Source: Actinoallomurus bryophytorum (GTDB lineage: Bacteria > Actinomycetota > Actinomycetes > Streptosporangiales > Streptosporangiaceae). Taken from it: a stretch of 64,000 nucleotides of DNA. Below are positions 24,504-28,971 of the stretch, piece after piece. The notes under the pieces were generated by a model. That model was not told the DNA's origin and did no database searches. It saw only the letters and a program-made list of their open reading frames with translations. The translations under genes and the position numbers were made by a program. Numbering within the stretch: the first letter of the stretch is position 1; every line of letters begins with the position of its first letter. The DNA lies in assembly GCF_006716425.1 (NCBI RefSeq), contig NZ_VFOZ01000002.1, positions 992,001 to 1,056,000 of the forward strand, given 5' to 3'.

Positions 24504-25082
24504 CTACTGGGCCCGGCCCTTCTCGTCGCCCCGATCGACATCGAGGCCGACGACGGACTCGCAGCGATTGCACCGCCATTCGGCGATGACCGACTCGGAG
24601 CCCATGTCACGTGTCCGGTAGGGCTTAGTGATCTTTTTCCGCCGCATTCCGTACCCACAGCTCGAATGCATCATCAGACCGCACTCATGGCACGGCCACA
24701 CGTCGTGTCCGTGGCGGTCGCAGCCGGGGCAGACCGGACTGTCGTACGTGCCGAGGGGGTCGGCGTCGGACCGCCAGCCGCGTTCGAGGTCGAGGTACTC
24801 GTCCTCGGGCCAGTGGTGGTCGGCGAGCCAGGCGAGGTACTCCTCGGCGCCCGCGGCGAGGTTGGCCGTCATGGATTCGGGATGCCGCCATGCGTGGTCA
24901 GCGGGTATGTGGTCCCGGCGGCGGACCGCCATGACCGGCACGAGGGCGAGGAGGGCGAGGGGCAGCAGCAGGGCCGAGACGATCATGAGTCGGCGTCCGC
25001 GCGCGTGCTCGAGTCGTCGGTGACGCGTCGTCGCGGCAATGCTGCGGGGGGCACTGCGGTTCCCACGGGGGCGTCCTTTCAT
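24504..25082 (-). CDS. Membrane-anchored protein with a C4HC3 (PHD-finger-like) zinc motif
   Basis: 192 residues. A basic N-terminus is followed by one hydrophobic helix (residues 33-53) and a central linker rich in Trp, Asp and His (WLADHHWPEDEYLDLERGW). The C-terminal part has eight potential zinc ligands: Cys118-x2-Cys121, Cys131-x2-Cys134, His139-x2-Cys142, Cys171-x2-Cys174. The spacing and order (C4HC3), plus Trp169 two residues before Cys171, match the consensus of eukaryotic PHD fingers; treble-clef or C1-like domains are alternatives. An internal ATG at 24986 would start exactly at the membrane helix. Function unknown; a cytoplasmic zinc domain recruiting a partner to the membrane is a guess. 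Confidence 0.72.
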   Translation of the reverse strand: MKGRPRGNRSAPRSIAATTRHRRLEHARGRRLMIVSALLLPLALLALVPVMAVRRRDHIPADHAWRHPESMTANLAAGAEEYLAWLADHHWPEDEYLDLERGWRSDADPLGTYDSPVCPGCDRHGHDVWPCHECGLMMHSSCGYGMRRKKITKPYRTRDMGSESVIAEWRCNRCESVVGLDVDRGDEKGRAQ

Positions 25083-25348
25083 GAGTCACTGCTGGGGGAG
25101 AAAGATCACAAGGACCCTGGTCCACACGCACGTGGGGTTGTTCACAAAGAGGTATGAACAGTATCGAATCCCGCGTTGGCTAGGAAATCGATCAAACAAT
25201 TTAGTGATCATTTCCCGAATCGCCATTGGTCGCGATCAGAGCCTCTTCATGATCGAAAAAGGCCCGCGGAGACACCGGATCCGGTCCGTCGCCGACCCGC
25301 GTATCGGCGGGCCGATAGGGCGGGCGGCGACGGGCCGGGCGATCCGGC

Positions 25349-25939
25349 TCAGGTCCGCCGGGAGCCCTTCAGCCGCATCGCGTGCTCGACGATGGCGATG
25401 AGGACCTGGACGGCGGACTCGCGCCGGCGCACGTCGCACATGACGATCGGCACGCCCGGGTCGAGGTCGAGCGCCACCCGGACCCGCGCCTCGCCGTACC
25501 TGGGGGCGCCGTCGAAGTGGTTGACCGCCACCACGAACGGCGTGCGGCGCTGCTCGAAGAAGTCGATCGCGCCGAAGCAGTCCGTCAGCCGCCGCGTGTC
25601 GGCCAGCACGATGGCGCCGACCGCGCCGCGGGCGAGGCCCTCCCACATGAACCAGAAGCGCTTCTGCCCGGGAGTGCCGAACAGGTACAGCACGATGTTG
25701 CTCTCGAAGGTGATGCGGCCGAAGTCCATGGCCACCGTCGTGGACTCTTTGGGCTGCATGCCGGTGACGTCGTCGAGAGCGTGTCCCGCCTCGCTGCGCG
25801 CCCCCTCCGTCCGCAACGGGCGGATCTCACTCGCCGTGCTCACGAGCGTGGTCTTGCCGACGCCGAAGCCGCCGGCGATCAGGATCTTGATTGCGACCGG
25901 CCGGGCGCCGGGGGGCCGTTCAAAGAGAGTGGAGCTCAT
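25349..25939 (-). CDS. Conservon GTPase (CvnD-like, ATP/GTP-binding protein)
   Basis: This 196-residue small Ras-like GTPase of the conservon type has the P-loop AGGFGVGKTTLVST (residues 20-33), STTVAMDFGRITF (switch region), FGTPGQKRFWFMWEGL (DxxG-equivalent TPG), and VAVNHFDG in place of NKxD. These proteins act with a membrane histidine kinase, a roadblock protein and a DUF742 protein in a G-protein-like membrane signalling complex. The ATG at 25939 overlaps the end of the DUF742 gene by 20 bases, the usual conservon arrangement. It is the last gene of the minus-strand conservon. Confidence 0.92.
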   Translation of the reverse strand: MSSTLFERPPGARPVAIKILIAGGFGVGKTTLVSTASEIRPLRTEGARSEAGHALDDVTGMQPKESTTVAMDFGRITFESNIVLYLFGTPGQKRFWFMWEGLARGAVGAIVLADTRRLTDCFGAIDFFEQRRTPFVVAVNHFDGAPRYGEARVRVALDLDPGVPIVMCDVRRRESAVQVLIAIVEHAMRLKGSRRT

Positions 25940-26294
25940 CCAACACCATGCGGAGTACCGCCTCATCGCGCGCGAATTCGGACGGCGTGGGAGTGCTCAC
26001 CCTCGCCAGTCCCTTGTCTCTGAGATCTCCGATCAGAACACGGACCACGCCGAGTGGCAGGTCCAGGTCCGAGGCCAGGTCCGCGACCGTGATCGGCTGC
26101 CGGCAGCGGGAGAGGAGACGCAGGTGCTCCGATTCGAGCCACCTGCGGTCCATCTTCGACGGCGCGGCCCCGACGACGACGGCGACCAGGTCCAGTTGCC
26201 GTCCCTGTGAGCGAGTCCGTCCCCGTGTGACGGCGTACGGCCGGACCACCGGTCCCGCCGCGTCATCGAACCATCGCCGTCTCCGCTCGCCCAC
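25920..26294 (-). CDS. Conservon DUF742 protein (CvnC-like)
   Basis: This 124-residue DUF742 protein has the usual N-terminal WFDDAAGPVVRPYAVTRGRTR, then LVAVVVG and a winged-helix-like HLRLLSRCRQPITVADLASDLDLPLGVVRVLIGDL. CvnC proteins are small accessory factors of the conservon signalling complex and may interact with the GTPase or DNA. The GTG start at 26294 lies six bases after the roadblock gene. No unusual feature. Confidence 0.92.
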   Translation of the reverse strand: MGERRRRWFDDAAGPVVRPYAVTRGRTRSQGRQLDLVAVVVGAAPSKMDRRWLESEHLRLLSRCRQPITVADLASDLDLPLGVVRVLIGDLRDKGLARVSTPTPSEFARDEAVLRMVLDELHSL

Positions 26295-26300
26295 CGGAGA

Positions 26301-26714
26301 TCACCCCCCGCCCGGCGTTCCACCTGCCGACCTCGGCGCCGTCGCGAGATGCCGGCGTACCCGCTTGACCAGCCGGGTCATCTCGTACGCGATCAGGCCG
26401 ATGTTCGCCTCGCCTTCGGCCAGCACGGCCAGACAGGACCCGTCTCCGGCCGCCATCACGAACACGAACGCCGACTCCAGCTCGATGACCGTCTGGCGGA
26501 TCTCCCCGCCGCCGAAGGTATCGCTGACGCTGCGCGCCAGGCTGTGGAATCCGGCCGCGAGCGCGGCAAGATGCTCGGCGTCGGCGAGAACGATACCTCG
26601 CGACATGCCCATCGGCACGCCGTCACCGGACAGGATCATCGCCTGCCGAACCTGGGCGACCCGGCCGACGAGATCATCCAGCAACCAGTTCAGCTCACCG
26701 GTCGTGTCGAGCAT
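26301..26714 (-). CDS. Conservon roadblock/LC7 protein (CvnB-like)
   Basis: This 137-residue roadblock/LC7-domain protein has LNWLLDDLVGRVAQVRQAMILSGDGVPMGMSRGI (first helix and strand), EHLAALAAGFHSLARSVSDTFGGG, and CLAVLAEGEANIGLIAYEMTRLVKRV at the end. Roadblock proteins act with small GTPases as GAP- or GEF-like partners, and in conservons they bridge kinase and GTPase. The stop is six bases before the DUF742 start and the start is 22 bases from the kinase stop. Confidence 0.93.
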   Translation of the reverse strand: MLDTTGELNWLLDDLVGRVAQVRQAMILSGDGVPMGMSRGIVLADAEHLAALAAGFHSLARSVSDTFGGGEIRQTVIELESAFVFVMAAGDGSCLAVLAEGEANIGLIAYEMTRLVKRVRRHLATAPRSAGGTPGGG

Positions 26715-26736
26715 TCGCCCTCGCCTTCCAAGGAAC

Positions 26737-28971
26737 TCACTCGTCGGGTTCTTCTTCCTCGCGTCCGCGCGTCCAACCCTCTTGGAGCGAGGCCATCAGC
26801 GAACGAGTCTCCTCCGGCGGCCGGGTGGTCGGCGAGCCCGTGCCCGCCGGACCGGGCGGAGGTGCGTCGTCGCGCAGCTGCGGGGCGAGGTTCGCCTGGC
26901 GGACGCGCCGCGGCAGCTCGGGTGCGCCGGGATCGGTACGGTCGCCGGTGGCACCGAGCGCCCGCACCGGACCGCTGATGCGCGGCCCGGACGACTCCCC
27001 CGTCTCGGCGGGGCGCCATGCGGAGGACGGCTCGTCGGACCAGGTCTGGTCGTAGTCCGAGCCCTCGTCCCCGGCGATGAAGTCCAGGGGGATCATCACG
27101 TTGGCGCGTGCGCCACCGTACGGCGACGTCGTCAGCCGTACGGTGATCCCGTGCCGTTCGGCCAGCCTGCCCACGATGAACAGGCCGAGACGGTCGCTGT
27201 CCGCCAGGTCGAACTCCGGCGGATGTGACAGCCGGTGGTTCGCGTCGGCGAGCTCGGCCTCGTTCATGCCGATGCCGAGGTCCTCGATCTCGACGGCGTA
27301 CCCCATGGCGGCCAGCTCACCGCGTACGTGGACCGGTGCGGGGGGCGGTGAGAAGGCGGTGGCGTTCTCGATCAGCTCGGCCAGCAGATGGGTGACGTCG
27401 GCGACGACGGCGCCATCGAGCGCGGCGGGCGTCGCGGCGTCCACGACGACACGGGTGTAGTCCTCCACCTCGGCGATGGCGGCGCGCAGGATGTCACGTA
27501 CGACCACTGGATGGCGCCAGCCGCGCGCGGGCGGCGCCCCGGACAGGATCACCAGGCCCTCCGCGTGACGCCGCATGCGGGTCGTGAGGTGGTCGAGGGC
27601 GAACAGGTCCTCCAGGGAGTCCGGGTCCGACGCCTCCCGCTCCATGGTGTCGAGCATGCTGAGCTGACGGTGCAGCAGCGACTGGCTGCGCCACGCGAGG
27701 TTGAGGAAGACCTGGCTGATGCCCTGCCGCAGGCGCGCCTCGCCGATGGCCGACTGCACGGCGGTCCGCTGCAGCGTGCTCAGGGCGTCGGCGACCCTGG
27801 AGACCTCCTTGCTCCGGCCCACCGTGATCGGCGGGACCTCGGCGTCGACGTCGACCTTCTCCCCTGCCCTGAGCCGCTTGATCACCTGCGGCAGCCGATC
27901 CCCGGCCAGGTCGAGGGCGGCCCGCTCCAGGCCGACGAGCTCTCGTGCCAGGCTCCGGCCGAAGAACACCGACACCGCGATCGACAGGGCGACGGCGAGC
28001 AGACCGAACCCGGCCGCCGCATACAACAGGAACATGATCCGGTCGCCGATCGGCTTGGCCTCGGCGGTGAGGACGGCGCCGGCGCGTTCGGTCGCCTGCG
28101 GCCACGTCCTGGTCAGCGGTGCGACCGTGGACCGCCAGGTATCCGCCTTCGGCGCGAGCGACGCTCTGGCGCCACCCGCGACAATGGTGTCCTCCAGGCT
28201 ACGGAGGGTGGTGAACTCCGACGAGCCCGCGAGCAGATCCAGCGGGCCACGCAGGCTGGGCTTCATGTCCGCGAGTCCGGTATCAACCAAATAGCGCTCA
28301 TTGTCCGCACTCCGCGCGAACAGGGTGAACTCCGCGCCGGTGAATCGGCGCTCGCGCCTGGCCAGCGCCGCCGCCACGAGCGCGTTCTCGCGCATCACGA
28401 ACTCCTGGGCGGTGCTCACCGAGCCGATCGCGGTGCCCTGCCGGTAGACGTCCGGATCATTGATCAGCACAACGCTGCCGAAAAGACGAAGAAGTGACTC
28501 GATCACGGTGCTGTAGTCATTGACCGCACCCAGCGCGTCCACGCTGCCCGTGTCGACCTGCGCGCGTACGCCGGGCAGCCCGTCGAGCCCGGTCAGGAGC
28601 TCGTCGAGGCGATGTCTCGTCGTATCGCTCATCGCCGGTCGCGCCTGGCCGCTAAGGGCCGACCGGCGGAACGCGTTCTCCGCCGCGTCGGTGGCGGCCC
28701 GCGCGGTGGTGACGGCGCCGCGGTCCTTTCCGCCACTACTCACTAACACCGCGGCCGCGACGCGCTCCTGCTGCAAAGTGGCCACAAGTGTGGTGACCGG
28801 CACGGCGACCTTACGGTACGTGGTCGATGCCTCGTATTTCCCGTAGGCGTCCTGGGCAGTGAGATAGGCGGCGAAGGCCCAGAGCGCCGCAAGGGACAGC
28901 AACGGCACCAAGAGGAGAACCAGCAACCTCAGCCGGAGCGACCGCCGTGCGGAATGCCTGTAGGAAGCCAT
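26737..28971 (-). CDS. Conservon sensor histidine kinase with NIT-type sensor domain (CvnA-like)
   Basis: 744 residues. There is one transmembrane helix near residues 14-38 and a second at 311-336, enclosing a helical extracellular domain (about 40-300) of the nitrate/nitrite-sensing (NIT) type. A HAMP-like linker follows, then a degenerate dimerisation region (LNLAWRSQSLLHRQLSMLDTMEREASDPD), and an HATPase with N-box LLAELIENATAFSPP near 530, DLGIGM, and RLGLFIVGRLAERHGI near 595. The usual phosphoacceptor motif is unclear, as in other CvnA proteins, so signalling may occur through ATPase-roadblock-GTPase contacts. The last 120 residues are Pro/Gly-rich. It is first of the four-gene minus-strand conservon. 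Confidence 0.92.
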   Translation of the reverse strand: MASYRHSARRSLRLRLLVLLLVPLLSLAALWAFAAYLTAQDAYGKYEASTTYRKVAVPVTTLVATLQQERVAAAVLVSSGGKDRGAVTTARAATDAAENAFRRSALSGQARPAMSDTTRHRLDELLTGLDGLPGVRAQVDTGSVDALGAVNDYSTVIESLLRLFGSVVLINDPDVYRQGTAIGSVSTAQEFVMRENALVAAALARRERRFTGAEFTLFARSADNERYLVDTGLADMKPSLRGPLDLLAGSSEFTTLRSLEDTIVAGGARASLAPKADTWRSTVAPLTRTWPQATERAGAVLTAEAKPIGDRIMFLLYAAAGFGLLAVALSIAVSVFFGRSLARELVGLERAALDLAGDRLPQVIKRLRAGEKVDVDAEVPPITVGRSKEVSRVADALSTLQRTAVQSAIGEARLRQGISQVFLNLAWRSQSLLHRQLSMLDTMEREASDPDSLEDLFALDHLTTRMRRHAEGLVILSGAPPARGWRHPVVVRDILRAAIAEVEDYTRVVVDAATPAALDGAVVADVTHLLAELIENATAFSPPPAPVHVRGELAAMGYAVEIEDLGIGMNEAELADANHRLSHPPEFDLADSDRLGLFIVGRLAERHGITVRLTTSPYGGARANVMIPLDFIAGDEGSDYDQTWSDEPSSAWRPAETGESSGPRISGPVRALGATGDRTDPGAPELPRRVRQANLAPQLRDDAPPPGPAGTGSPTTRPPEETRSLMASLQEGWTRGREEEEPDE

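Follow-up and report, generated by a model that had tools for sequence, protein, structure and literature searches.

What is a zinc motif with the ligand pattern of a PHD finger, a domain regarded as a eukaryotic chromatin reader, doing on a small membrane protein of an actinobacterium? The question is raised by an open reading frame (ORF) on the minus strand (24504-25082) of a 64,000-nucleotide stretch of Actinoallomurus bryophytorum contig NZ_VFOZ01000002.1, hereafter the window, for which an initial annotation had claimed a single membrane helix followed by a PHD-like C4HC3 motif. Our data confirm the motif and partly support its interpretation: the protein represents a new, lineage-restricted family whose zinc domain is PHD-patterned and probably binuclear, as distinct from a demonstrated PHD finger. 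The explanation that we favor, at about even confidence, is a small membrane-tethered cytosolic adaptor whose zinc domain would be a binuclear treble clef of the PHD type. In a literature search the phrase "bacterial PHD finger" was not found, and the papers listed for related wording included no title on bacterial PHD fingers.

The order and spacing of the eight Cys/His residues, C-x2-C-x9-C-x2-C-x4-H-x2-C-x28-C-x2-C, together with the Trp two residues ahead of the seventh ligand, were exact in the ORF, as had been claimed. Among the 561 six-frame open stretches of at least 60 residues in the window, a relaxed PHD pattern occurred in the present ORF alone; it was absent after the residues of every window stretch had been shuffled 2000 times and from all 200,000 shuffles of the present ORF. 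The conservation of the ligands, proposed at the outset as a check, was complete. All eight ligands and the Trp were invariant in 30 of 30 aligned full proteins and in 35 distinct domains, obtained by reading 36 of the 49 genomes in which a match reached the zinc domain (two were read as L002 and L003). The C4HC3 order was kept in all 35 domains, with a constant spacing of nine residues between the second and third ligands and a spacing between the sixth and seventh of 28 in 33 domains and of 27 and 29 in one each. Two of the 49 genomes (G114 and G066) had one TGA flagged in the match, and the frames read there were open through the zinc domain. Three further genomes, all of the genus designated g38, matched in the N-terminal module only; in the two that were read (L051 and L052), the proteins ended just past the module, such that where the ligands were gone the whole domain was gone. 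The nonsynonymous rate (dN) was below the synonymous rate (dS) in all nine tested pairs (e.g., 0.075 versus 0.560), which indicates purifying selection on the gene.

The 192-residue translation of the ORF agreed with the initial annotation, and the correction concerns its start. A start codon at the first Met was present in the window and in three other Actinoallomurus sequences and absent in the remaining four of the eight (L002, L003, L006, and L007), and M33 coincided with the start in the alignment of 30 homologues. All eight Actinoallomurus sequences have a 23-32-codon leader ORF preceded by a Shine-Dalgarno sequence, and in each of them its TGA stop overlaps the main start by four bases (ATGA or GTGA). 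Because four of the eight sequences lack the upstream start codon and the leader ORF overlaps the main start in all eight, translation most likely starts at 24986 and gives a protein of 160 rather than 192 residues, with the first 32 codons of the longer ORF probably untranslated. Residue numbers given here are therefore those of the initial annotation minus 32 (C86 ... C142, W137). The claim of one membrane helix ahead of the motif was upheld, as a single hydrophobic segment (residues about 2-21) is followed by Arg-Arg-Arg, and a conserved PHD-patterned motif is thus present on a predicted membrane protein. Since the Arg cluster follows the hydrophobic segment, we infer from the positive-inside rule that the C-terminus is cytosolic.

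Comparisons with known zinc domains pointed towards PHD-type treble clefs, although no single sequence comparison is significant by itself. When the 35 domains were scanned singly against Pfam (25 of 51 families listed, with E-values alone), PHD was the family touching most of them (32 of 35; best E, 0.0022), and the cross-braced treble clefs zf-RING_15/KIAA1045, C1, RING_16, and Prok-RING_1 were among the 25 listed families, with zf-RING_15 (KIAA1045/PHF24) touched by 24 domains. When the PDB was searched with a profile of the domain, PHF24/KIAA1045 came first (E 0.082 and 0.33) with all eight ligands aligned, GATA-1/GATA-4 reached E 0.38, and a Pygopus PHD finger was fifth (E 2). GATA-4 and GATA-1 aligned without gaps over 43 residues, and their four zinc ligands, which share the x17 spacing, fell on C86, C89, H107, and C110; this register fits the pairing of an interleaved binuclear treble clef. 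In binuclear treble clefs, according to PMC4999995, the first zinc occupies the mononuclear site, and the hairpin turn together with a core extension holds the second. Pairwise hhalign comparisons gave P 6e-5 for PHF24 (ligands 1-6 only), 5e-5 for Pygopus (second half only), and 6e-4 for GATA-4.

Several results weigh against the favored explanation. The window protein had no match over a curated cut-off among the Pfam families listed up to E 10 or in NCBIfam, scoring 7.6 bits against a cut-off of 24 for Pfam PHD (PF00628; E 5.3, spanning all eight ligands) and an E of 0.015, below cut-off, for PHD_2; all E-values were marginal. Families outside the cross-braced PHD/RING types, namely Cas12f1-like_TNB (31 domains), HalOD2 (31), zf-UBP (24), and zinc ribbons, were touched nearly as often as PHD. 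The hhalign templates other than Yippee had been chosen for their best scores, so that their advantage over shuffles is partly selection. Furthermore, the mononuclear zinc ribbon eL43 gave the best hhalign score (P 5.6e-6; ligands 1-4 only) and came marginally first in the full-length profile search (E 0.082 versus 0.10). This, alongside the several ribbon families in the Pfam scan, favors two short zinc ribbons or knuckles in series (C86 C89 C99 C102; H107 C110 C139 C142), a generic structural element unrelated to PHD. However, such an arrangement would leave unexplained the full PHD spacing and the invariant Trp, as well as the end-to-end coverage of the ligands in the alignments with PHF24 and Pfam PHD, and we regard it as improbable.

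Predicted structures also weigh somewhat against the PHD-type explanation. The AlphaFold2 model of the domain (predicted local distance difference test [pLDDT], 77.6), built from three close sequences, weakly resembled a beta-tent rather than a PHD finger, and structure searches with two programs and two models placed no PHD structure among the 50 matches listed for each, a result that is compatible with a PHD match further down. A beta-tent of the Yippee/Mis18/CULT kind with a second zinc site would have C86/C89 and C139/C142 at the apex of two beta sheets, while C99, C102, H107, and C110 would hold the second zinc inside the first hairpin, the whole forming a cradle for a small ligand or peptide on the membrane. 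The sequence comparison with Yippee-like 5, the one member compared, showed no relation (hhalign probability 0.9; P 0.06; equalled by 34 of 150 shuffles), and the PHD templates were ahead of it by three orders of magnitude in P. We consider this fold unlikely, while according it a real minority share of our confidence. The fold prediction suggested in the initial annotation thus gave a weakly beta-tent-like model, whereas the GATA register agreed with interleaved zinc sites; and the PHD-likeness claimed there stands as regards ligand order, spacing, Trp, the breadth of PHD matches, and PHF24 as the best solved match over all ligands, and falls short as regards the Pfam cut-off and the structure searches. 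Histone-tail reading, the role cited there for PHD fingers, found no support. At the position two before the His ligand, where BPTF and ING2 carry the Trp of their methyl-lysine cage, all 35 domains had L, M, V, I, or T, and none had an aromatic residue. This argues against a trimethyl-lysine reader only. Our conclusion is that the protein is probably not a histone reader.

Between the membrane segment and the zinc domain lies a module of the form PESMT...EEYLAWLADHHWPxDEYLDLE, the region of which is acidic (net charge -8 over residues 41-81), and the zinc domain contains a basic stretch (+6 over residues 111-128). Nine of 22 neighborhoods, all nine from g38, contained a total of 11 module proteins that lack the zinc domain. 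Because these zinc-less paralogues retain the membrane segment and the acidic module, the zinc domain is, judging by its distribution, a separable part. In the adaptor explanation, the C-terminal part would face the cytosol, and the zinc domain would bind two interleaved zinc ions (C86, C89, H107, and C110; C99, C102, C139, and C142) and serve as a protein-interaction module that keeps a partner from the cytosol at the membrane. An acidic surface may be the docking site of the basic stretch MRRKKITKPYRTR, and the partner could, as a guess, be the acidic module of the g38 paralogue or that of another copy of the protein. A membrane-tethered protein-interaction module is the most likely function on the present sequence evidence. 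A more specific proposal strikes us as rather unlikely: that the domain is a genuine bacterial PHD finger, membrane-tethered, whose target is an acidic peptide other than a histone, perhaps the zinc-less sister protein's DEYLELE tail.

The distribution of the protein was narrow. Of 297 genomes of the same family, 69 matched at E 0.01, and the match reached the zinc domain in the above-mentioned 49, which belong to five genera of one family (eight Actinoallomurus [g1], 34 g38, five g67, one g51, and one g66); all eight Actinoallomurus genomes carried the gene. Apart from the three module-only genomes, the remaining 17 had weak matches only (E 1.7e-5 or weaker). Fourteen weak stretches were read, comprising 11 of these 17 genomes, a second match in G264, which also has a strong one, and two from a class search of 394 genomes; they were six CutA1-like proteins (both of the two scanned were CutA1 in Pfam), one CutA1-like fragment recognized by eye, and seven chance-like frames, so that seven of the 11 genomes were CutA1-like (one by the fragment) and four chance-like. 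The weak matches that were read were rejected as homologues outside the family. The class search, with nine candidates scored per genome, matched six of 394 genomes (four known members and two weak, chance-like matches); a class search with the module only matched two of 246, both known members, and an order search matched 31 of 200, three of them weakly (E 0.005-0.007). As far as these searches reach, the protein represents a lineage-restricted, previously unnamed family of some soil actinobacteria.

Upstream of the gene, a promoter-like element sits 170-208 bases from the start at 24986 and is conserved across three genera; the g38 and g67 orthologues are preceded by a related form, TTCTTGTAGCGTTC. 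When one mismatch was allowed, this g38/g67 form had one copy in four of six genomes and two copies in the other two, with one copy in each genome directly upstream of the zinc-protein gene, and the control search with the element written backwards gave one match. The zinc-less paralogue in g38 has a related TAGCGTTC element. Owing to the four-base overlap of the two ORFs, the leader ORF and the main gene are probably translationally coupled; in g67, the leader has shrunk to three codons, GTG-AGG-ACA-TGA, in five of five sequences. The gene thus seems to be expressed from a promoter of its own and behind a coupled leader ORF, an arrangement that would probably set its dose tightly.

In Actinoallomurus, the gene lay downstream of a conservon on the same strand in seven of seven neighborhoods, directly in six and about 2 kb away in L036 (conservon Pfam assignments refer to the window copy only). 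Such a placement would suit an accessory protein that feeds input into the adjacent conservon, an actinobacterial G protein system, in the manner of CvnE or CvnF. However, the conservon accompanies the gene in only one of the three genera examined, and the neighbors differ in the other two: a DUF5999 gene and the zinc-less paralogue in g38, with the DUF5999 gene falling in the same cluster in nine of 10 g38 neighborhoods (E 8.4e-35, one scanned), and a long gene, Tex-like by eye, in g67. At L038:10135-12097, as in several other g38 neighborhoods, the zinc protein, the DUF5999 gene, and the zinc-less paralogue stand close together. CvnE and CvnF are partnered by a CvnA without NIT, whereas the CvnA here (26737-28971) is a NIT histidine kinase (NIT, E 6.9e-36), and neither GAF (as in CvnF) nor P450 (as in CvnE) was among the seven Pfam families listed up to E 10 for the window protein. 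Because the gene has its own conserved promoter-like element and the CvnA bears NIT, an accessory role is very unlikely; with the different neighbors elsewhere, it was rejected as the leading explanation, and the gene is probably not a dedicated part of the neighboring conservon.

Coordinates of the zinc-protein gene, its elements, and the adjacent conservon in the window
Feature	Position	Strand	Description
Main coding sequence	24504..24986	-	160 residues plus stop, with membrane segment, acidic module, and zinc domain; start most likely as given, from the alignment of 30 homologues and leader coupling
Eight-ligand zinc domain, residues 82-151	24534..24743	-	C86 C89 / C99 C102 / H107 C110 / C139 C142, W137; invariant in 35/35; Pfam scan
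PESMT...EEYLAWLADHHWPEDEYLDLE module, residues 36-71	24774..24881	-	Common to zinc-less paralogues; resembles the C-terminal end of CutA1
Single membrane segment (predicted), residues 2-21, then RRR	24924..24983	-	Hydropathy 2.57 over residues 1-19
Leader ORF	24983..25066	-	27 codons, GTG start, AAAGGA Shine-Dalgarno; TGA overlaps main ATG by four bases
Promoter-like element TGATCGATTTCCT...GATTCGATACTGTTC	25156..25194	-	Conserved; single exact copy in genome
Conservon, directly upstream	25349-28971	-	Complete set of CvnA (NIT and HATPase), CvnB (roadblock), CvnC (DUF742), and CvnD (GTPase)

If the domain is a genuine PHD finger that reads a non-histone peptide, bacteria would have put the PHD fold to use in peptide reading away from chromatin; if it is instead a beta-tent with a second zinc site, it would add a new variant to the beta-tent fold. 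Among 148 genomes of the same class, no protein scored above the Pfam PHD cut-off; because this search missed the present protein too, it is blind to diverged cases. A conserved PHD-pattern domain on a bacterial membrane protein, with zinc-less sister proteins as natural controls, would make it possible to test how old binuclear treble clefs are and what they were first used for.

Among known systems, CutA1 (PF03091) resembles the module rather than the zinc domain: its C-terminus, PEIIATPIVAGSxEYLxWI, can be aligned to PESMTAxLxxGxEEYLAWL of the module (hhalign probability 81; P 1.2e-5; none of 100 column shuffles scored as well, for a candidate picked since it surfaced in searches), but the likeness covers 27 columns only, the CutA1 core is missing, and it may reflect convergence. 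The beta-tents of Mis18, Yippee, and CULT share the weak model resemblance and two CxxC pairs about 50 residues apart, whereas the published fold has one zinc and eight strands and drew no sequence support from Yippee-like 5, the only member compared. Binuclear treble clefs have reportedly been described from prokaryotes before, by Burroughs et al. 2011 to judge from the title; Prok-RING_1 (PF14446) differs in that it was touched by four of the 35 domains only (best E, 0.033). The Pygopus PHD finger (PDB 3zpv) has the same AEW-x-C-x2-C at the last ligand pair and the same first CxxC, but ligands 3-6 are out of register and E is 2. The PHD finger of PHF24/KIAA1045 (PDB 1wil and 5xht; Pfam zf-RING_15) differs in lacking the conserved SVVGLDVD tail and the membrane segment of the bacterial protein, and the match at E 0.08 is not significant; nevertheless, it has the same eight-ligand order with near-identical spacing, Pro-Cys at the third ligand, a long loop between the sixth and seventh ligands, and the Trp two residues before the seventh.
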